Made by a program: the position numbers and the translations under genes. Shown here piece after piece: positions 3,898-22,082 of a stretch of 37,076 bases of DNA (positions are counted from its first letter, which is position 1; every line of letters starts with the position of its first letter). The DNA comes from Planctomycetia bacterium (GTDB lineage Bacteria > Planctomycetota > Phycisphaerae > Phycisphaerales > SM1A02), in assembly GCA_005790565.1 (NCBI GenBank), contig SXUJ01000174.1:1-37076 (forward strand), written 5' to 3'. The notes under the pieces were generated by a model, which worked only from the letters and a program-made list of their open reading frames with translations, had not been told where the DNA came from and searched no databases.

Positions 3898-3977
3898 GTG
3901 TTCGCGTGGGATGAGCGCGCAAAGTTCTCATTGACTCGCCGTCGACACTGAGCTATCGTCATCAACGCATCCAGAGT

Positions 3978-4131
3978 CTCGGGCGGCCTCCATAAAGCCC
4001 GAGCAGCAACCGAGCCTAGCGATCTTCGCAGGGGCCACGGTGCTGAGGCCAGCCCTGAAGAGGGCGATGCGGCGTGGCGGTGCGATTGTTTGGCACGGCC
4101 CACAGCAAATCAGTTCCCCGCGTGAGGGAAC
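3978..4131 (+). ncRNA. Candidate structured leader RNA with pseudoknot upstream of the MoxR/vWA/MetK-like operon
   Basis: CTCGGGC 3978-3984 pairs GCCCGAG 3997-4003 (7 bp); loop GGCCTC 3985-3990 is complementary to GAGGCC 4045-4050; GCGA/TCGC 4019-4022/4026-4029; GCCCT-GAAG-AGGGC 4052-4065; GTGG..GTGC/GCAC..CCAC 4074-4103; GTTCCC/GGGAAC 4113-4118/4126-4131. Confidence 0.5.
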
Positions 4132-4158: not shown

Positions 4159-4178
4159 ATGTCGTGGAGTCACGACAT
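4159..4178 (+). promoter_or_regulatory. Hairpin sequestering the ribosome-binding site and part of the start codon
   Basis: ATGTCGTG-GAGT-CACGACAT, perfect 8-bp stem with 4-nt loop; contains GGAG 4166-4169, 7 nt before ATG 4177. Confidence 0.6.
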
Positions 4179-5641
4179 GAAGACCCGTTCAACAACCACC
4201 GTCACCACCGCAACTGAACAGTCGCGCGGGTCTCCTGCGCCAGCTCGGCCTGATTGGCATGGAACAGATCGAGCCCATTGTGATCGCCGCGCTCGCTACT
4301 GGCGCGCCGATGCTGCTGATTGGTCCCCATGGCACAGCGAAGAGCTTGTTGCTCTGCCGTCTGTGTGAGGCACTCGGAATCACGTGGCGCCACTACAACG
4401 CGAGCCTTCTCAACTACGACGATCTCGTGGGGTACCCGCTTCCAGATGATCATGGGGGACTGCGATTCGTGCAGACTCCCGCCTCGATCTGGGATGCACA
4501 AGCTGTCTTCCTCGACGAGATCTCGAGGTGCCGTCCCGACATGCAGAATCGCCTCTTCTCGATCATTCACGAGAAGAAGGTGCAGGGGATGCCGATTGAA
4601 CGGTTGATCTACCGGTGGGCGGCGATGAATCCGCCGATCACGGCTGATGCCGATGGACAGGACGGCGACAACTACACAGGCAGCGAACCACTGGATGCCG
4701 CGCTCGCTGACCGATTCAGTTTCGTTGTGAGGGTGCCCCGTTGGCATTGGCTCAGTGAGTCGGACCGCGAAGCTGTCATCTCTGGTATCGACTCGCCGCT
4801 CTCGCGAGAGACCGCGGCCGCACTCGCCGAGCGTATTGAAACTGTGCGACGAGAAATCGATCTCGTCACTGCGGCGCTCGGCCCCGCAGTCACTCAGTAT
4901 GTGCGACTCATCGCAGAGCAGGCGGCACCCATGGAACTACCACTCAGCGGTCGCCGGGCAGCGATGCTCTACAGAAACATCATCGCCGTGCACGCGGCGC
5001 GGCTCGTCGATTCGCCATCGGCAGCTGCGAGCGACTCAGCCTGGATGGCGCTTGAAAACTCGATTCCGCACAGAGCAGAGGGGAAGGAGGTCCCGCGCGT
5101 TCGACTTCTCCTCGCACACAAGTCCGTGTGGGCGATGGCCTCCATGGAAAAGACGGACCCGCGGCGGCTTCTCATCTCTGAGCGTTGTCCGGTGCGGCGC
5201 GCGATCCGCGCGATGGGACTGGAAGGACTCTCAGGCACGGAGCTCTCTGCGTACATCGCCGATGGGCTCGCCGAAGCGCCCCCCGGCGCTCGGCACGCTC
5301 TCGCCGCGTTCGTCGTCAATTCTCCAGCTGCAGCGCGACTCAACGCGGCGGTCGCCGAGCAAGCGGCTGAACTCTCGGTCATGTCGTCAGTCGCGCAGAG
5401 TGTTTCAATCGCTGTTCTGGCGGGTGGTCAAGAGCACAGCGCGTGGCAAGAGATCGCCAAAGTTCTGGCCGCGCTTGCGCCGGACCATCACGAGACAATC
5501 GCGATCACGAATGTGCTCGCAGGGCTGTTCAATGAGAAGGTCATCAAGACTCCTGACGATGTCACGCGAGTACTCGAATCGTGGCGCGGTGTTCGGCGAC
5601 TATGCAAAGGCGCAGACACGCAACAGGGGTCATCCACATGA
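4177..5641 (+). CDS. MoxR-family AAA+ ATPase (uninterrupted ORF from ATG 4259; N-terminus probably begins at 4177 in a frame offset by one)
   Basis: Walker A LLIGPHGTAKSLL; Walker B/MoxR signature AVFLDEISRCRPDMQNRLFSIIHEKKVQG and AAMNPP; coding-like LLRQLGLIG lies in frame upstream of ATG 4259 with no ATG/GTG/TTG start in that frame. Confidence 0.85.
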
Positions 5642-6039
5642 TTGGCGCGCGACCGACAGTCACTGTTTCGCACAAGGGAACGAACGGGTGCGACATCATC
5701 GCGGTGTCGTTCTCGATCGCACACGACATCCGCCGCCTGTGCGATCGTTGCGGCGTGCGCTACCGAGGCGATGCGCACGGGATCAATCAACTTCGTCGCA
5801 TCGCGATTGAGTGCTCAGATGCGTTGATGACGCTCCCTGCAGTCGCCGCGGTTGTCCCTCGGGAAAGGGGCGAGTACAGACCTGGCTTCAGCGACGATCC
5901 GCGACTTGTCATCGCCGTGCTCAGTCGCTGCTCGAAGAGCGTGTTCATTCGTGGCAAGTCACCCCTCCTGAGCAGCGAGATTCTCAACCGCCCCCTGGCG
6001 ATCGTGCTGCCGCGCGAGCATTCGGAGCAATCAGTATGA
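5638..6039 (+). CDS. 133-aa protein of unknown family, component of the MoxR/vWA/MetK-like operon
   Basis: ATG 5638 overlaps TGA of the ATPase (ATGA); its stop overlaps ATG 6036 of the next gene. Confidence 0.75.
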   Translation: MIGARPTVTVSHKGTNGCDIIAVSFSIAHDIRRLCDRCGVRYRGDAHGINQLRRIAIECSDALMTLPAVAAVVPRERGEYRPGFSDDPRLVIAVLSRCSKSVFIRGKSPLLSSEILNRPLAIVLPREHSEQSV

Positions 6040-7406
6040 CAATCGCATGCGACTCACTCACCGACCGCATCTTTTCAACCCTTCCAGCAGGGCAGTACTG
6101 TTTGCCGGCGCTCATGCAGATCCTTGAGGTCGTCGAGAGCACGGCGGTTCCGAGTGCGGCAGTCGAATGCGCGTCGAGGCCGCGACTTTTCATCAACCCC
6201 CAGTTCGTCGCGAAGCATGCGCAGACACCGGAAAAGCTGCTCATGTTGGTGATGCATGAATTGCACCATGTGATGCTCGGTCACACCCGCCTCTATCAGC
6301 GCGTCAGCCAGGTCGACAATCTTGTCTTCGATGCGGTGATCAACGCGATGCTCTGTCGACTCATTCCCCAAGACGAGTACACCGCGCTGTTTCGAGACTT
6401 CTATAAATGGGGCCGATTTCCCGAGTGTTTCTTGCGCCCACCACCCAAATGGCACCCCTCGCACGGGAAGGTGACCCCACCGACGGCGCTCGCGAGCCGA
6501 AAGCACCAGCCCCTCTCGCAACTCTACTGCGCGCTGTATTCACCGACAGGCGCGACGTATCACGAGTTGCGTGAGGCGTTCACGAACTGCGGTGATGCAG
6601 CCCGCTTCGACCCACCGAAACTCTTGGGAGATCACACATCAGAGGGGAGTGGCTCATCGAGTGACGGAGAGCTTGATACCAGAACCCCCGCGCTCTTCGA
6701 TGAAATGCGGCGAATCACGAAGTCGTGGCCGACACCAGGGTTCGGGCGTGGTGGGCCAACCGCCCACGACCTCTTCGAGCGCGCTTGTCAGGTGCCCAGA
6801 AGCAACCGTCGCAGCCTCGAACTGATCTTGCGTCGAGTCGCAGCGTTCACTCAGTGTGCTGGTCGCACCGCGAAGGTCGACACAGTGGTCTCGCCACTCA
6901 CGACCCCAGTGCCGCACATAGATCGGCGAAGCGTGGTTCTCAAGGCGCTCGGAGGTCGCACGATTCTGTACCGCGCTGAGTGCCCGGTGAGGCGCGCGAC
7001 ACAGAAGCAACTGCGGGTTCATGTTTACCTGGATGTCTCAGGGAGCATCGGCAATCTCGTGGGACCGCTCTACGGCGCAGTGCTCGCTTGCCGCGAGATG
7101 GTGCATCCTACGATTCACCTCTTCTCAACGAAGGTCGCCGATGTCACGCTCGACGAACTCCGCCGTGGCGTCTGCAAGACAACGGGAGGAACATCGATCG
7201 AGTGCGTCGCGTCGCACATGGCGAAACACAGGGTGCGTCGTGCCGTGATCATCACCGATGGATTCGTTGGGGTGCCGACCGCCAACGCCGCGGCCGCGCT
7301 AAACGCTTGCACGGTGGGTGTTGCGATCCCTCCCGGAAACTCGAGTCGACGTGATCTCGGCGACTTCACCGATCACTGGATCAATCTCACGGAGATCACC
7401 ACATGA
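6036..7406 (+). CDS. DUF2201-like metallopeptidase with C-terminal vWA-like domain
   Basis: HExxH in VMHELHHVMLGH; MIDAS-like DVSGS (VYLDVSGSIGN), TTGGTS, IITDGF; ATGA overlaps with both neighbours. Confidence 0.85.
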   Translation: MTIACDSLTDRIFSTLPAGQYCLPALMQILEVVESTAVPSAAVECASRPRLFINPQFVAKHAQTPEKLLMLVMHELHHVMLGHTRLYQRVSQVDNLVFDAVINAMLCRLIPQDEYTALFRDFYKWGRFPECFLRPPPKWHPSHGKVTPPTALASRKHQPLSQLYCALYSPTGATYHELREAFTNCGDAARFDPPKLLGDHTSEGSGSSSDGELDTRTPALFDEMRRITKSWPTPGFGRGGPTAHDLFERACQVPRSNRRSLELILRRVAAFTQCAGRTAKVDTVVSPLTTPVPHIDRRSVVLKALGGRTILYRAECPVRRATQKQLRVHVYLDVSGSIGNLVGPLYGAVLACREMVHPTIHLFSTKVADVTLDELRRGVCKTTGGTSIECVASHMAKHRVRRAVIITDGFVGVPTANAAAALNACTVGVAIPPGNSSRRDLGDFTDHWINLTEITT

Positions 7407-8554
7407 CATCACACACAGCCACGCACACTGCCCGCACCGCTGAATTCGTTCTGCCAGGCCATCCCGACAAGCTGGCAGACGCGATCGCCGACGCAATCGT
7501 TCACGAGGCCAGGCGGCGCCAGAAGCGCGCGCTTGTCGGAGTCGAAGTGGCGCTCCACCGAAACGCGGTCTTCATCGACGGTCGCATTGGATGCCGCGGC
7601 GCGAAGGCGATCGATGTCGAGTCGATCGTGCGCGATGTCTACGCGTCGGCCGGATACGGGCCCCGATTCGCTCCGCGCCCGATGAATCTCACGGTGTCGA
7701 CCGACCTTCATGTGGGTCCACTACGTCGTGGCGAGGCTGCATACCGCGAAGTCTCTGATGACCAATCGATCGTCACCGGGTACGCATGCAGTCTGCCAGG
7801 AACTGAGGGAGTTCCACCCGAGCATGCCTTGGCGCGGCGGCTCGCCATCGCGCTCCATCACCTTCGGCGCGAGCAGAGTGCGCTCAAACTCGGCCCCGAC
7901 GGAAAGGTCATCGTCTTCGTCAACGAGTCGCTCGATGGGCGAGCGCTTCATCTCACGGATGTGTCCGTGTCGATTCAGCACGCAAAGAAGTGGGACGCAG
8001 TCTCAGCTCGCCGGGTGATTGCCGCGCGAATCCGCAGTGAAATCGAGGAGTTCGCGCTGGCGGTCCCAGGCTTCGACGCAACCGCCGACTTTGCGCTTTC
8101 GATCAATGCAGCTGGCGATTTCGTCGCCGCTGGTCCGCACGGGGACAACGGGCTTTCAGGCAAGAAACTCGTCGCAGATTTCTATGGACCGAGGGTTCCC
8201 ATCGGCGGCGGTGCGATGAGCGGCAAAGACTTCTGGAAAGCGGATCGTGCTGGTCCACTCATTGCGCGCAAGTTGGCGGTTGCCGCAGTCGAGCGGCTCG
8301 GATGTCGCGAGTGCCTCGTCACGCTTGGCATTCGTCCTGGTGACCGTGAATTCACGATCGTGCGCGTCGAAGCGGAGAGCCACCAGCCAGTCGATCACGC
8401 GCGGCTCAGCGGACTCGTCGATCTTCGCCTCGCGAGTATGCACGCGTGGCCCGATGAAGCGGGTGATCTTGTCGAGGTCGCGCGGTGGGGTCACTTCACG
8501 CTGCGGACTATGCTTTCGGCGCGCGCCTCGCAGCCAGAGGCGGTTTCGGGTTGA
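7403..8554 (+). CDS. Divergent S-adenosylmethionine synthetase (MetK-like)
   Basis: GHPDKLADAIADAIV; SDDQSIVTGYA in place of GAGDQG.MFGYA; GPHGDNGLSGKKLVADFYG; GGGAMSGKDFWKADRAG; about 383 aa. Confidence 0.88.
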   Translation: MTSHTATHTARTAEFVLPGHPDKLADAIADAIVHEARRRQKRALVGVEVALHRNAVFIDGRIGCRGAKAIDVESIVRDVYASAGYGPRFAPRPMNLTVSTDLHVGPLRRGEAAYREVSDDQSIVTGYACSLPGTEGVPPEHALARRLAIALHHLRREQSALKLGPDGKVIVFVNESLDGRALHLTDVSVSIQHAKKWDAVSARRVIAARIRSEIEEFALAVPGFDATADFALSINAAGDFVAAGPHGDNGLSGKKLVADFYGPRVPIGGGAMSGKDFWKADRAGPLIARKLAVAAVERLGCRECLVTLGIRPGDREFTIVRVEAESHQPVDHARLSGLVDLRLASMHAWPDEAGDLVEVARWGHFTLRTMLSARASQPEAVSG

Positions 8555-8576: not shown

Positions 8577-10379
8577 ATGATGAGACCGACAATCACTGCG
8601 ATGATGACCGCACTGCTCGCAGTCGCATCCGCGAGCCTCGTCAGTGCAGCGGTGGGACTTGGCCAGTTGCCACTCGACGCGCCGCCCGGTGCGAGCGGCG
8701 CACAAACAGCGTCAGCGCGTTGTTTGTCAGTCATCCCAGGGTTGGATCAACGACAACGCGAACTCGACTCGCACATCGTGACATACTCAGTTGTTTCCTA
8801 CGGCGCTCGCAGCGGTGAGATGGCGTCGTTTGAATTGCCACTCGACGCTGAAGCGCCCGATCGGGTCGATCTGATCAAGGTTGCAACCGTGTTCAAGTCG
8901 GGGCTCGCCTATCGCGTTCACGAGCAAACAATTTGGACTCGCCGAGGTCCTGAAGAGGCGAACGCCACGTCACTGTTTACAAGCGACGGCGCGCAGTTTC
9001 ACACCCGATTCGCCAAATCACAGGGAGGCCACTCCACGGTGATGTTTGACCTGAATGACTCGATGCACCGTGTAGGACCACAAATGGATGCCTATGGATG
9101 GCGTGTCCTTGGGCAAGTGGCGCCGCTGGACTTTCAGCAGTACATGAGGTGGGGAGCAGCGTCTGCAGATCTTCGAGTTGAGTCGAATGTCGGCGGGAAG
9201 TCCGGGGTCTCTCGCGCTTCGTGGCGATTCCTCCCAGACTTACCGCAAACTCGAGTCACAGCCACGATCGATGACCGCACGAGTGCTCTCAGCACAATCC
9301 AAATGGATGTGCACTCTGGTGACGCGACTCTACCTGGCGCGAAGGTGATGCTGAGAAAGAGTGTGTCGTTGTACGACTACACCCTTGGAGGCAAGGTTGT
9401 CTCGGGAGCGCGGGTGGTCGATCAACTCAACGGGGCGAGCGAAGAGTGGCCAGCCGCTTGGAGCGTTGCGATTGTGACACCGATCGCGATCGAGCGCGCT
9501 CCATGCACTCGAGAACGCATCTACATCACCCCGAACACCGATGACCTTGTTCAGGATGCTCGATTCGACATCGCGTACCGACCCGATGAGGCGCGCGTCA
9601 ATCTCGACGGGCTCGTTGTGCCACTCGCTCAGAATCCGATGGGTGATGTTGGATGGCAGCTCGATCAGTGGGTGTCGAATCTTCCTCCGCTCAAGAGCGC
9701 GGTACTCCCGCTGGACGCACGCTCCGACGAATCATCGGTGCCGTCCGAAGCAATCGTCTTCGACGCTGGCACAGTGCTTGTCGACGAGCAGCCTGCGCGC
9801 GCAGAGCATTCTTTCATGATCCACAATGACTCGACAGTGGCATGGCGGGTGAAAGATGTCGTGAAGTCTTGTGGGTGTTTGACTTGCGACATCAGCACGA
9901 GGTCAATCGCACCTGGCGCCGATGCGGTGCTGTCGATCGCGATGAGTGTGCCTGCTCCGGGTGAACGGCGCCAACATGTCGCCGTGGTCTTCGAAGATGG
10001 CACCATCATGAAGTTCGAGTTGCGCGCGCGCGGTCACAGCCAGGGAAGTCTGCGTGTTCTCACCGATGGATTCACTGAGCGCGACGGCCTGTGGCGTGCT
10101 GATCTCCGTGCGTACTGGGTGGAGTCTGATCCGGCGAGCGTGCAGATGCCCGTGGCGCCTCTTACGATCGGCGACTCGGGATCAGCGATCCTTGAGTTTT
10201 CAGGGTGGACGCTCATCGAGCCACCGAGCACCGATGGCCAGCGCCCTCGAAAGCTGTTTGGGCGTGGCGCGGTGACGCTGACTCAGCCACCCGCGAGTTC
10301 GGCGTGGATCGGAAAGTCGCTGTCGTTTGCAGCCGGTGCGTCGAGGTCGTGCTCGCTGCCGATCGTTGTTGCGGAGTGA
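8577..10379 (+). CDS. Secreted protein with DUF1573-like C-terminal domain
   Basis: GAGGAGGA RBS at 8563-8570; signal peptide MMRPTITAMMTALLAVASASLVSAA; FMIHNDSTVAWRVKDVVKSCGCLTCDISTRSIAPGADAVLSI. Confidence 0.75.
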   Translation: MMRPTITAMMTALLAVASASLVSAAVGLGQLPLDAPPGASGAQTASARCLSVIPGLDQRQRELDSHIVTYSVVSYGARSGEMASFELPLDAEAPDRVDLIKVATVFKSGLAYRVHEQTIWTRRGPEEANATSLFTSDGAQFHTRFAKSQGGHSTVMFDLNDSMHRVGPQMDAYGWRVLGQVAPLDFQQYMRWGAASADLRVESNVGGKSGVSRASWRFLPDLPQTRVTATIDDRTSALSTIQMDVHSGDATLPGAKVMLRKSVSLYDYTLGGKVVSGARVVDQLNGASEEWPAAWSVAIVTPIAIERAPCTRERIYITPNTDDLVQDARFDIAYRPDEARVNLDGLVVPLAQNPMGDVGWQLDQWVSNLPPLKSAVLPLDARSDESSVPSEAIVFDAGTVLVDEQPARAEHSFMIHNDSTVAWRVKDVVKSCGCLTCDISTRSIAPGADAVLSIAMSVPAPGERRQHVAVVFEDGTIMKFELRARGHSQGSLRVLTDGFTERDGLWRADLRAYWVESDPASVQMPVAPLTIGDSGSAILEFSGWTLIEPPSTDGQRPRKLFGRGAVTLTQPPASSAWIGKSLSFAAGASRSCSLPIVVAE

Positions 10380-10416
10380 GTCGCTAAGTGTCAGCGCTCC
10401 AAGTAGGATTCTGGAT

Positions 10417-10632
10417 ATGAGTGCTTACGCTTCAGCGAGTCTTGAGCAGATTCTTGTGGCGATTCGAGCCCAGATGCCCACACTGCGGGCAATGGGAGTC
10501 GTACGCGCTGGAGTCTTCGGATCGCGCGCGCGGGGGACTAGTCGGCCAGATTCTGACCTAGATCTGCTCGTGGAGTTTGAGCCGCGTCAAGAGCAGCGGC
10601 TGCGGGACATGCGTGAGGCGTGCCCATCCTGA
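10417..10632 (+). pseudogene. Truncated MntA-like nucleotidyltransferase antitoxin
   Basis: GVFGSRARGTSRPDSDLDLLVEFEP (GSxARG...SDxDL) then premature end at 71 aa. Confidence 0.65.
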
Positions 10633-14115: not shown

Positions 14116-15107
14116 GTGCTCGGTGGCCCAGTAAAACTCGTCGATCGTTTCCAGCTGGATCGCCTCGCCAAACGGACTCCCGCTGCGCTCTTTGATGAAC
14201 TGGACAAGTTTCCACGCTGGAAGCAGTTCCAGAAGGGATTCTTCGACACCTACGGGCGCGGTGGCGACAGCCTCATGGGCCGTTACTTCATCTACCGCAT
14301 TCACCCCTTCAACGTGGCTGAAGTGCTCCACCGAGGGCTTCCGGATCAGAAGCGCATCGTTTGTCCCCCCAACCGGATCAAGCCTGAAGTGTTCGCCGCG
14401 CTCTAGAACCACGGCGGATATCCCGAGCCGTTCCTCAAGCGCGACAATCGCTTCCCGCGGCGATGGCAGGCGATGCGCGTGGAACAACTGCTGCGCGAAG
14501 ATGCCGCGATCTCACCCAGATTCAGCACGTCGGCCAATTGGAACTGCTGGTGAAACTGCTCGCCAACCGATCCTCAGGTCAACTCATCTATCGCACCCTC
14601 GCTCGGGACATCCGAGTGGGTATCGACACCGTGAAGCGCTGGGTCGACGCGCTCAACAGCCTGCATCACGGGTTCCTGATCAAGCCGTGGTTCAAGAGTG
14701 TCGCCGAGAGCCTTCGCAAGGAACCGAAGTGGTTTCTTCGGGACTGGGCGGGGATAGAGGATCTCTGGCAGCGGGTCGAGACCTTCGTGGCGTGCCATCT
14801 CCTCAAGGCGGTCGATGGTTGGACCGACATGGGACTCGGGAAGTTTCACTTGGCGTACCTGCGAGATACGCGCCAGCGCGAAGTCGACTTTGTGGTGATT
14901 CGCGATGGAAAGCCATGGTTCTTGGTCGAGGTGAAGCAGTCTGATGCGGCCGTTGGAGGCGCTCTCGGTTACTACCAAGAGCAACTCAAGGCGCCCTTCG
15001 CCTTTCAGGTGGTCCTCGACGCCGAGTTTGTGGATGCAGACTGCTTTGCCCAGCCGCGCGGCCCGATGAGCGTTCCCGCCCGGACATTCCTCTCGCAATT
15101 GCTGTAG
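14116..15107 (+). pseudogene. Degraded AAA-family ATPase with DUF4143-like C-terminal domain
   Basis: Fragments LFDELDKFPRWKQFQKGFFDTYGRGGDSLMGRYFIYRIHPFNVAEVL / stop at 14404-14406 / NHGGYPEPFLKRDNRFPRRWQAMRVEQLLRED / frameshift near 14505 / DLTQIQHVGQLELLVKLLANR...LVEVKQSD; Walker A region absent. Confidence 0.75.
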
Positions 15108-19063: not shown

Positions 19064-20788
19064 TTAGACCGCGGGCATCGATTCCACGCTCAGGAACTCA
19101 TTGAGCCGAACTGCGATGAGGCGGCGCCTCTCAGTCAAGAAGTCCAGAAACTGCTCGCGCGACAAGAGAGCAAGATCGGTCGGAACACACTGCGCGCGAA
19201 AGATCTCGTCGCCGTGTCGCGCAAGCAGTTCGGGGATGTATCTGGATGGCTCGCGCGCGCTTATCTTTCGATTCGCTTTGCCAGCGATGAACGCGAGGTT
19301 GGCAATGTCGTTCACTTGCCGAGGCTTGTAGACCCCTTCGAGGTACGCCTTGGGGAAAATGTGGTGACACTGGAGCCGCTGTTGCTGGCCCGGATGATCG
19401 AGAGCGATTCCCACATTGCTGTGCCAGTCCTTCGCGCCAGCGGCTCGGAAGCCCAAGAACATCGTCTTGAAGTATGCGCTGCGCTTGTCGCGGCCTTCGA
19501 GGTCGCTCGGTCGTACTTCAAGCGTGCCAACTTGTCGCTGCAATCGCTCGAAGAGCTCATCCACATTCCCACCGTCGCGCAGCACCGCGAGATCCTCATC
19601 CAACAGTGTTTCAGACGATGACCGAGAGTACCGGCCCTTTGCGTTGGCCAAGAGCGCCCAGCGGCGCAGTGCCTCAGCCTCCTCTTGAGAAATCTGATAG
19701 TTCCTCTTGTGGCCGAAGTACGCGATGGCGAGCGCGAGATAGTTCGAAGAGAGCAGCGCTGGGCTGTCGATGTGCGCGTTACTCTTGAGAAAGCTGAGCG
19801 AATACTCCATCGCAGGGCGACATTCGCTCCAGCCGTGTTCGAGCATCGCGCTGCTCATGCCACGCACTCTTCGAAAGCGTGACTGCGCCGTCGCGATGAC
19901 CATCAGATTGCGAATGTGAAGGCTCAAGTCAAAGTCGAACCCTTGCGCCGCACAGGAGTCGTCAAACTTCTCAAAAATCGCGAGTGAGTTACGCCACTTT
20001 GCGGTGACCTGCGCCAGCGCGAGATCAGAGCCTCGAAGTTTCGCACCGAGCGAGTTGACTCGGACGAAGACTTCGGTGACCTCGTCGTAACTCATGGAAC
20101 TCGGAAGCACTTCCATTCCGAACAAGTAGTTTCGAATCCCGCGGAGTCGCTCGAGTCGTGTGGTGTAACGGTCGTAACGAGGATCGTTGAAATCGGCGAC
20201 CCCAGCCTTCTTCAGGAAGGGCCGATCGCTTCCCTCCTTGAACACATCGGACACCGATACCCAGTTGGGCAGTTGCGCGAGACTCTTCGTACCAACCACA
20301 AATGCCATCCTCTCAAATCGCCGCTGTAGTTCTTCTTCGTCCGAATCTGGCGCGCCGTTGTCGGAAAGTTCGTCTTCATCGATGGATTCGTCGCTGTCGT
20401 CGTCATCGACTTCAGTCACCACCTCGAGTTCGTCGGGATGGTCTAAGTTAAAGCTAATCTCGACTGGCTTCTTACGGCCGCGAACGGTGACTGGCTTGCC
20501 AGCGAGCACGGCAGCGAGCGATGTGATGCGCTGCTGCCCATCCAACAACAAGCGATGAGCGCGAAAAGCAGGCACAGCCTGTTCAACAGCGGCGGCGCGA
20601 AGTGCAACCTCCTCGTTGGTCTCCCAGACGAGAATGGTGCCTGCGGGATACCCGCGGTAAAGCGAATCCAACAAGTCGCGAACGCGGGTTCCAGGCCACA
20701 CATAGCGGCGCTGCATCTCGGGAAGCACTAGGTCACGCCGCAGATACTGCTGGATCAGTTCATCCACCCGAATGTCAGTTCTTGCCAT
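19064..20788 (-). CDS. DUF262 domain protein with C-terminal HNH/DUF1524-like region (GmrSD-like)
   Basis: MARTDIRVDELIQQYLRRDLVLPEMQRRYVWPGTRVRDLLDSLYRGYPAGTILVWE; LLLDGQQRITSLAAVL; LQCHHIFPKAYLEGVYKPRQVNDIANLAFIAGKANRKIS. Confidence 0.85.
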   Translation of the reverse strand: MARTDIRVDELIQQYLRRDLVLPEMQRRYVWPGTRVRDLLDSLYRGYPAGTILVWETNEEVALRAAAVEQAVPAFRAHRLLLDGQQRITSLAAVLAGKPVTVRGRKKPVEISFNLDHPDELEVVTEVDDDDSDESIDEDELSDNGAPDSDEEELQRRFERMAFVVGTKSLAQLPNWVSVSDVFKEGSDRPFLKKAGVADFNDPRYDRYTTRLERLRGIRNYLFGMEVLPSSMSYDEVTEVFVRVNSLGAKLRGSDLALAQVTAKWRNSLAIFEKFDDSCAAQGFDFDLSLHIRNLMVIATAQSRFRRVRGMSSAMLEHGWSECRPAMEYSLSFLKSNAHIDSPALLSSNYLALAIAYFGHKRNYQISQEEAEALRRWALLANAKGRYSRSSSETLLDEDLAVLRDGGNVDELFERLQRQVGTLEVRPSDLEGRDKRSAYFKTMFLGFRAAGAKDWHSNVGIALDHPGQQQRLQCHHIFPKAYLEGVYKPRQVNDIANLAFIAGKANRKISAREPSRYIPELLARHGDEIFRAQCVPTDLALLSREQFLDFLTERRRLIAVRLNEFLSVESMPAV

Positions 20789-22082
20789 GTGGTCTTCTGG
20801 AGTGTGACAGGGTACACGCAGCCGGATCGCAGAGCAGGGACGAAGTGGGGGGGGGTCGGTGTGGCAACTCTTGTGTCGCGCAAGGGCGCAAGCGGCCGAA
20901 GCAGAGCCCAACGATCATTGAGTGAAAGACCGCAAAGCGTAGATCGGAAAGTGTGACATTCGTCACCCCAATCACGACTGTTGCGGCAAACAGTGCGCTA
21001 GATAGGGCCGTAGTCAACCGGTCGGCGCGCTTTGTCAATAGAACAGAAATCACGGGGCCGACCAGCACAAGCAGGTACGCAGCGAGGCCCAACAGACCGT
21101 AGCGCCAAACTACCAGAAGGTACTCGCTATCAAAGTGAGCTCCCGTAGCCTCGAAGTGCTCTTGCCGTGGGGCGTTGCCAAACACTGGACTTCTCAGAGC
21201 TTCTTCTAACAACTCCCTCCACCGTCCCGCTCTTAACAGAAATGAATTGTGTTCGAAGATGTTCTCGCTGAACACCGACTCTACAAACGTTAGGGTGAGC
21301 CATCGGGAGAGGGACACGATCAGAAAGATGACAAGAAGCACAAGCAGGGAAGCGCCAATTGCTGCCTCTGCACTTCGCACACGAGAGGCGACTAGGAGCG
21401 ACAGCGCTGCCAGCATCGCGATCAATCCTGTTCTCGACTGAGCAAAAACGACGAGGACAAAACACAACCCTTCAAGAGCCGAATCTAGCGCACGCCGTCT
21501 ACCAGTCAGCCAAGCTGCTAGAAAGAGAAGGAGAAGGAGCGCCGCGTGGGCGTTTGGATTGGACGACAAGCCCGCAAATCGGTCGGACTCGCCTCGCTGA
21601 GCGAGTAGCGCCGCGGCCTCCACCGTCTGTGGTGTCGCATACGCCGCATAAAGGCCGCCAAAGGGGGAACTAGTCCACCAGCCAACGATCTGCCACGCGC
21701 ACACTGTCAAGTACACCGCACACAACCCAATGAACCAGCGCCCGAAGAGGCTCGCGAGCTTCTCTCGACTGCCTATCTCGAACCAGAGGATTGTCGAGCC
21801 GCCAGCGATGAGCACCGTCGAAATCTCGACGTAGTCCTGATAAACGTGGATTCTCTGGTTGGTCACAATCGATGCAAGGATGCACGCAACAAACAGTGCG
21901 AGCAACTTGAGATAGGTAGCCAGCCCGCTCGAACCCAACCGACGCGAAGTGAGCCAATCAAGCCGAACGGCCCCGTAAAATGCGAACAGTCCAAGAAGCA
22001 AAGCGCGAACATTTGTTTGCGCATGAAACGGCACAAACAATAGAAGTGCAACAACAGCAATGGCTGCTACTACCACTAGCAT
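20775..22082 (-). CDS. O-antigen polymerase/ligase-like multi-spanning membrane protein (Wzy-like)
   Basis: Multiple hydrophobic helices; LSSNPNAHAALLLLLFLAAWLTGRRRALDSALEG; FAQSRTGLIAMLAAL; genomic context. Confidence 0.75.
   Translation of the reverse strand: MLVVVAAIAVVALLLFVPFHAQTNVRALLLGLFAFYGAVRLDWLTSRRLGSSGLATYLKLLALFVACILASIVTNQRIHVYQDYVEISTVLIAGGSTILWFEIGSREKLASLFGRWFIGLCAVYLTVCAWQIVGWWTSSPFGGLYAAYATPQTVEAAALLAQRGESDRFAGLSSNPNAHAALLLLLFLAAWLTGRRRALDSALEGLCFVLVVFAQSRTGLIAMLAALSLLVASRVRSAEAAIGASLLVLLVIFLIVSLSRWLTLTFVESVFSENIFEHNSFLLRAGRWRELLEEALRSPVFGNAPRQEHFEATGAHFDSEYLLVVWRYGLLGLAAYLLVLVGPVISVLLTKRADRLTTALSSALFAATVVIGVTNVTLSDLRFAVFHSMIVGLCFGRLRPCATQELPHRPPPTSSLLCDPAACTLSHSRRPHGKN

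Follow-up and report, generated by a model that had tools for sequence, protein, structure and literature searches.

A MoxR-vWA operon with a MetK-like protein and SAM-type riboswitch leaders in a planctomycete and in other bacteria

Introduction

MoxR-type AAA+ ATPases and proteins with a von Willebrand factor A (vWA) domain form several described pairs, among them NorQ-NorD, CbbQ-CbbO, RavA-ViaA, and CoxD-CoxE. Here, we analyze a four-gene operon in a 37,076-nucleotide stretch of DNA (the window; contig SXUJ01000174.1 of assembly GCA_005790565.1, C161 in our numbering) from a planctomycete-like genome of 2.66 Mb. Like the known pairs, the operon combines an AAA_5 MoxR protein with a vWA protein that carries a metal ion-dependent adhesion site (MIDAS) and has a NorD-like fold. 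It differs from them in that the vWA protein also bears an invariant HExxH domain, and in that a fixed paralogue of the S-adenosylmethionine (SAM) synthetase MetK, a small protein of no known family, and control by SAM-type riboswitches belong to the set.

The vWA-MoxR-VMAP ternary conflict systems (PMC7159879) likewise have a MoxR and vWA core and a patchy distribution, and the operon MoxR scores 26.9 bits against the bpMoxR profile, the cutoff being 27. However, the operon has no recognized VMAP or effector domain, it has a SAM-type riboswitch, and a MetK-like component is not mentioned in that paper. Compared with MetK proper (TIGR01034), the operon protein retains the three S-AdoMet_synt domains and the catalytic histidine, Mg/K, and triphosphate residues, but it reaches half the cutoff score, has Glu56, Gln99, Arg245, and Ile303 replaced, and falls in a clade of its own that is associated with the operon. 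Finally, the leader RNA of the window has the AUC-AGAG, GCAACC, GGUGC, and GAU core and the P2-J3/4 pseudoknot of SAM riboswitches, and leaders of relatives reach gathering scores for SAM-I, SAM-I/IV, or SAM-II (RF00162, RF01725, and RF00521), whereas the window leader itself falls below the RF00162 threshold and an AAA+ operon as target was not reported in the papers searched.

Open-licence PMC papers yielded none that combined MoxR with SAM synthetase and von Willebrand, MoxR with a SAM riboswitch, or a riboswitch with vWA and S-adenosylmethionine. This agrees with a preliminary description of the window, made from the sequence alone, which knew of no described system with this gene set. The MoxR-vWA half is thus of a known kind; the full set, the MetK subfamily, and the RNA control were not found described in these searches and therefore appear to be new at the system level.

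Results

The operon and its MetK-like protein

The four genes lie on the forward strand in the order MoxR AAA+ ATPase (4259 to 5641), 133-amino-acid orphan (5638 to 6039), DUF2201-type metallopeptidase-vWA protein (6036 to 7406), and MetK-like protein, a predicted adenosyltransferase (7403 to 8554), with ATGA at the three junctions (5638 to 5641, 6036 to 6039, and 7403 to 7406). Pfam searches returned AAA_5 (47 bits), no family, DUF2201_N with a weak VWA_CoxE match, and three S-AdoMet_synt domains, respectively. All four genes and three overlaps of the preliminary description were therefore recovered, but the first overlap may not be the true junction. The peptide IHMIGARP, encoded just before ATG 5638, aligns with the LHNMxxRP motif of gene 2 at other loci; gene 2 therefore probably begins upstream of the annotated ATG, for example at ATG 5602 (5602 to 6039). 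A paralogous complete operon is present on contig C13 of the same genome (27 to 53% identical gene by gene), with ATGA at two of its three junctions and an 8-bp overlap at the third. Chance adjacency of the four genes was ruled out by this second copy and by recurrence elsewhere. The genome also carries a separate canonical metK on contig C124, which, together with conserved active-site residues, rules out that the MetK-like gene is a pseudogene or the sole metK.

The MetK-like protein was described at the outset as a complete last member of the operon. It is indeed full length, with PF00438, PF02772, and PF02773 all above cutoff; however, it is not an ordinary MetK, since its pocket is altered and it scores 156.5 bits against a TIGR01034 equivalog cutoff of 309.4. 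Numbering residues as in E. coli MetK (one higher than in PMC3853416, so that Glu56 = E55 and Gln99 = Q98), the family keeps His15, Asp17, Glu43, Asp119, Lys166, Phe231, Asp239, Lys246, Lys266, Lys270, and Asp272, and H15, D17, E43, D119, Q120, D239, K246, and K266 are invariant wherever covered. We take Asp17, Glu43, and Asp272 to be metal ligands and Ile303 to contact methionine. In E. coli methionine adenosyltransferase (MAT), Glu55 and Asp238 hold the amino group of methionine and Gln98 and Lys269 its carboxylate (PMC3853416); the same paper describes roles for E55, Q98, K269, I102, and H14 and stars Glu55, Gln98, and Lys269 as contributed by the neighboring subunit.

In the operon family, Glu56 is replaced by Arg (49 members), Leu (8), or Cys (2), the window protein having R61 (codon 7583 to 7585). 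Gln99 and the surrounding loop residues are deleted in all 61 members, Arg245 is Lys in 59 of 59, and Ile303 is Pro in 55 of 55; Ile103 is present as Leu. As a control, 56 MetKs from viral contigs keep Glu56, Gln99, Arg245, and Ile303 wherever these are covered (55 to 56 sequences). Because phage MetKs retain all four residues, the pocket change is, by this comparison, specific to the operon clade, which is monophyletic (support of 1.0) on a long branch. By these alignments, the ATP/triphosphate site is kept and the residues holding the methionine amino group (Glu56) and carboxylate (Gln99) are lost. Besides the operon type, G000 and seven of eight further genomes that were tested encode a canonical MetK.

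SAM-type leader RNAs

The operon is preceded, on the same strand, by a leader RNA of the SAM riboswitch clan with a SAM-I-like aptamer (3959 to 4081). It matches RF00162 at 22.6 bits, below the gathering score of 44.4, and comprises P1, P2, P3, P4, and a P2-loop/J3-4 pseudoknot. RNAs 70 to 89% identical to it lie upstream of the operon in relatives. Across an alignment of 13 leaders, all seven P2 pairs show two-sided changes, the pseudoknot covaries, and 92% of cells are paired, compared to 31 to 37% with the partners slid. Our own model, R1, scores the window leader at 121 bits and detects exactly two copies in the genome, both before the two operons; RF00162 gave no match elsewhere in this genome. 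Leaders of the window type occur at 16 operon loci, window included, and RNAs of this type in 44 of 151 genomes of the window's order. Among 12 operon-less cases that were opened, eight precede a Cys/Met pyridoxal phosphate (PLP) enzyme gene followed by an aspartokinase-homoserine dehydrogenase gene, one precedes an SNF2 helicase gene, and three are without an assigned downstream gene. Since in such genomes the RNA mostly precedes methionine biosynthesis genes, gene context ties the class to methionine/SAM control.

A SAM-type riboswitch precedes the operon at all 41 loci with both the operon start and upstream DNA, and at L165 as well. SAM-I/IV (RF01725) reaches the Rfam gathering level at 16 other loci (44 to 70 bits; twice in L056), SAM-I does so in L047 and L049, both of which have SAM-I/IV too, and SAM-II (RF00521) was detected in L063 and L072, both barely above the gathering threshold. 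Our own models identified SAM-I/IV-type leaders in L057, L071, L076, L077, and L079 and, with a SAM-II model built from two sequences, SAM-II-like leaders in L065, L083, and L165. Scanning 416 kb of loci whole revealed no SAM elements elsewhere than before the operon. The repeated occurrence of different riboswitch classes at this position argues that the SAM level is the natural signal for the operon. Tandem riboswitches stand before the operon in L047 and L049 (SAM-I/IV and SAM-I) and in L056 (two SAM-I/IV).

SAM-I/IV and window-type leaders also precede SNF2 helicase genes at L193 (G497, contig 16) and L180/L192 (G414); the hosts are a betaproteobacterium, where the helicase gene has resolvase-like and macro-domain-like genes nearby, and a planctomycete. 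At L194 (4586 to 6079; G431, contig 151), SAM-I/IV stands before a different AAA_5 ATPase, whose gene runs off the end of the contig; the operon is present in this genome too.

Downstream of the window leader, a hairpin at 4159 to 4178 of the forward strand (AUGUCGUG-GAGU-CACGACAU) is a candidate expression platform. A GGAG ribosome-binding sequence lies in or next to its loop and ATG 4177 in its 3' arm. The hairpin is kept in six loci, with a compensatory change in L029, and folding prediction agrees. Because it holds both the ribosome-binding sequence and a start codon, it is consistent with translational control at ATG 4177. The preliminary description had the operon start at this ATG; in the window, however, MoxR is out of frame with it. 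ATG 4177 opens a 63-amino-acid open reading frame, while the frame encoding MoxR, open from 4181, has its first ATG at 4259. Given that ATG 4177 sits in a hairpin conserved among relatives, it is probably the ancestral MoxR start, and the window copy probably carries a one-base indel or assembly error.

Distribution and inheritance

Scanning the GTDB contig collection (∼85,000 species genomes) with the MetK-like pair as query returned 58 loci. Two of these are canonical MetK (L080 and L081), and L082 is a contig-end fragment without adjoining operon genes; in the remaining 55, the vWA gene lies directly upstream of the MetK-like gene. Complete four-gene sets are present in 44 of the 55, and nearly all of the other 11 are cut by contig ends; in L071, MoxR has been lost and the vWA frame is broken. 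Carriers are labeled as Planctomycetota, Chloroflexota, and Beta-, Gamma-, and Alphaproteobacteria (Pseudomonadota), although many are metagenome bins whose taxonomic labels may be wrong. L060 is an isolate, the cultured strain Quisquiliibacterium transsilvanicum DSM 29781, whose operon is complete and has a 66-bit SAM-I/IV leader. L165 carries a more distant paralogous set. The recurrence and patchiness proposed as a check in the preliminary description were thus borne out across three phyla: the set occurs outside the window genome and its close relatives, and the MetK-like gene is not that genome's only metK.

In random samples, operon-type scores (canonical MetKs score less than half as high) were found in 10 of the 151 genomes drawn from the window's order and in 5 of 300 genomes of L060's order, one of the five a fragment. 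Among 201 Chloroflexota and 399 Pseudomonadota genomes, the seed genome alone has such a score. One genus holds both a carrier (G399) and a noncarrier (G303). A concatenated tree of three genes mixes phyla with strong support (planctomycete L076, for example, falls within a proteobacterial clade), which suggests horizontal transfer of the operon, with bins and paralogues as caveats. For the four proteins, the distance matrices show correlations of 0.85 to 0.93 (29 loci), as expected for a co-inherited unit, though shared ancestry would contribute too. A search for the vWA protein by tblastn found none in plasmid and phage collections; together with the viral-contig scan, which gave canonical phage MetKs alone, this led us to reject mobile plasmid or phage cargo. 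Two divergent operons (L026 and L046), each preceded by a leader RNA of its own, lie on opposite strands of CAMBOV010000007.1 and are separated by ∼12 kb. The two copies in the window genome come one from each of the broad branches that these represent.

MoxR, the small protein, and the metallopeptidase-vWA protein

The preliminary description had paired MoxR with an HExxH- and MIDAS-bearing vWA partner, and these features were all found; the MoxR and vWA motifs, HExxH and DxSxS among them, are invariant in 31 to 36 homologues. In a 31-member alignment of MoxR, the Walker B D/E and arginine positions do not vary. Among 36 members of the vWA gene family, DUF2201_N is detected in 33 and VWA_CoxE in 26 (E < 0.01), and H74, E75, H78, and H83 (HExxH, ∼6255 to 6269) and D333, S335, S337, and D408 (MIDAS DxSxS, ∼7032 to 7046) are invariant. 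The AlphaFold model of this protein (pLDDT, the predicted local distance difference test score, of 84) has NorD of the NorQD complex as its top PDB fold match.

The third component is small and fast evolving, but a homologue is always present between MoxR and vWA where the region is complete (44 loci). Two motifs recur in most members, LHNM-PP at the N terminus and VFxRDxxP at the C terminus. A Pfam search of 45 members gave no convincing family, and the AlphaFold model (pLDDT of 87) had no match in a PDB fold search. Adenosylation of the methionine of the LHNM motif was considered and dropped, since many members have Ile, Thr, or Ser at this position.

Neighboring genes

Upstream of the operon, the PLD-helicase-DUF3427 gene at 151 to 3420 matches a PADLOC type IV methyl-directed restriction enzyme at 567 bits. 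A homologue 58% identical adjoins the operon in L195, and one 35% identical lies downstream of it in L069; single DpdB-, DpdC-, or DrmC-like neighbors occur near other loci. The flanking genes are otherwise diverse, and neither a conserved fifth gene nor a conserved defense neighbor was found among the operon loci. At 1e-5, PADLOC returned no match for the four core proteins; the best was a 13-bit AAA match for MoxR, with none for the other three.

The window also holds a nucleotidyltransferase fragment (10327 to 10632), a DUF4143 protein (14463 to 15107), and a GmrSD_N protein (19064 to 20911) that matches PADLOC HEC-05. In several planctomycete loci that are close relatives (L040, L042, and L048), the operon has a catalase-peroxidase gene ∼350 bp upstream.

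Discussion

We propose, with a probability of about 0.5, that the operon is a SAM-governed, horizontally spread accessory module combining an adenosyltransferase, which probably takes a substrate other than free methionine, with an AAA+/vWA machine that serves it. Low SAM would cause the riboswitch to release operon expression. The MetK-like enzyme would then cleave ATP to triphosphate and move the adenosyl group to a sulfur nucleophile other than free methionine, possibly a methionine derivative whose alpha-amino group is not free, so that the product would be SAM made by another route or a SAM-like compound. By analogy with NorQ/NorD and CbbQ/CbbO, MoxR and the vWA-peptidase would form a dedicated AAA+ activator or substrate-delivery machine of this enzyme, with the small protein as adaptor. 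A link to SAM had been suggested in the preliminary description. SAM does appear to be central, because SAM-type riboswitches precede the operon wherever this could be checked; simple local SAM supply, however, fits poorly, because the methionine pocket has been rebuilt.

Several points weigh against this proposal. The enzymatic and binding roles are predictions from sequence, a physical link of MoxR-vWA with the MetK-like protein is inferred from gene order alone, and that the riboswitch turns off at high SAM is an assumption based on its class. Since Ile103 is conserved as Leu and Lys270 is unchanged, the substrate may yet be methionine-like, and the clade might, like archaeal MATs, use different residues to bind free methionine. 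Tentatively, the product could be an unknown adenosyl sulfonium compound (not SAM), made from a non-methionine substrate with AAA+/vWA assistance; the leader would sense this compound or SAM, perhaps as an alarm for SAM depletion, including that caused by phage. We regard this version as possible but short of probable.

T3-type phages destroy SAM by means of a SAM hydrolase/lyase. The operon could thus be a defense armed by SAM loss, in which phage destruction or drain of SAM releases the riboswitch and switches on an AAA+/peptidase effector, while the MetK-like protein restores SAM or makes a signal. We keep this unlikely alternative because of the patchy, cross-phylum occurrence, the presence of two divergent operons in each of at least two genomes, and some restriction-type neighbors: the type IV restriction helicase adjoins in the window and L195 and is nearby in L069, and single DpdB/DpdC/DrmC-like genes occur elsewhere. 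The SNF2 helicase genes that follow SAM-type riboswitches in two phyla, in one case with a resolvase alongside, point the same way. The defense or conflict role put forward in the preliminary description draws on gene context, the adjoining helicase included, but the four proteins lack a PADLOC match at 1e-5, the flanks are diverse with no conserved defense neighbor, the vWA gene is absent from phage and plasmid collections, and ordinary methionine genes stand under the same RNA class.

Back-up SAM synthesis, which corresponds to the SAM-supply idea of the preliminary description and in which a divergent methionine adenosyltransferase is induced at low SAM with MoxR-vWA as its activase, would accommodate the riboswitch control, the intact ATP/triphosphate site, the retained Lys270, and Ile103 conserved as Leu. 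We nonetheless find it hard to favor, given that no member covered retains Glu56, Gln99, or Ile303, all of which phage MetKs keep, and that most carriers checked also have a canonical MetK. The near-constant presence of canonical MetK would instead suit a prozyme-like regulatory or hetero-oligomeric partner of that enzyme, its assembly controlled by MoxR-vWA, as would the fact that the lost Glu55 and Gln98 are among the neighboring-subunit residues of E. coli MAT (PMC3853416). Yet conservation extends to Lys270, which is starred as well, and to the whole ATP site, which a pure regulator would not need, and interaction with canonical MetK is conjecture; of the explanations considered, this seems to us the least likely.

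In none of the described systems that we found is a MoxR-vWA machine linked with a MetK paralogue, and no SAM riboswitch was reported to control an AAA+ machine in the papers searched. If the proposed reading is correct, the operon would add adenosyl-transfer chemistry beside SAM synthesis, give the MoxR-vWA family, which is poorly understood, a client, and represent an accessory gene set with RNA-based sensing of SAM shortage.

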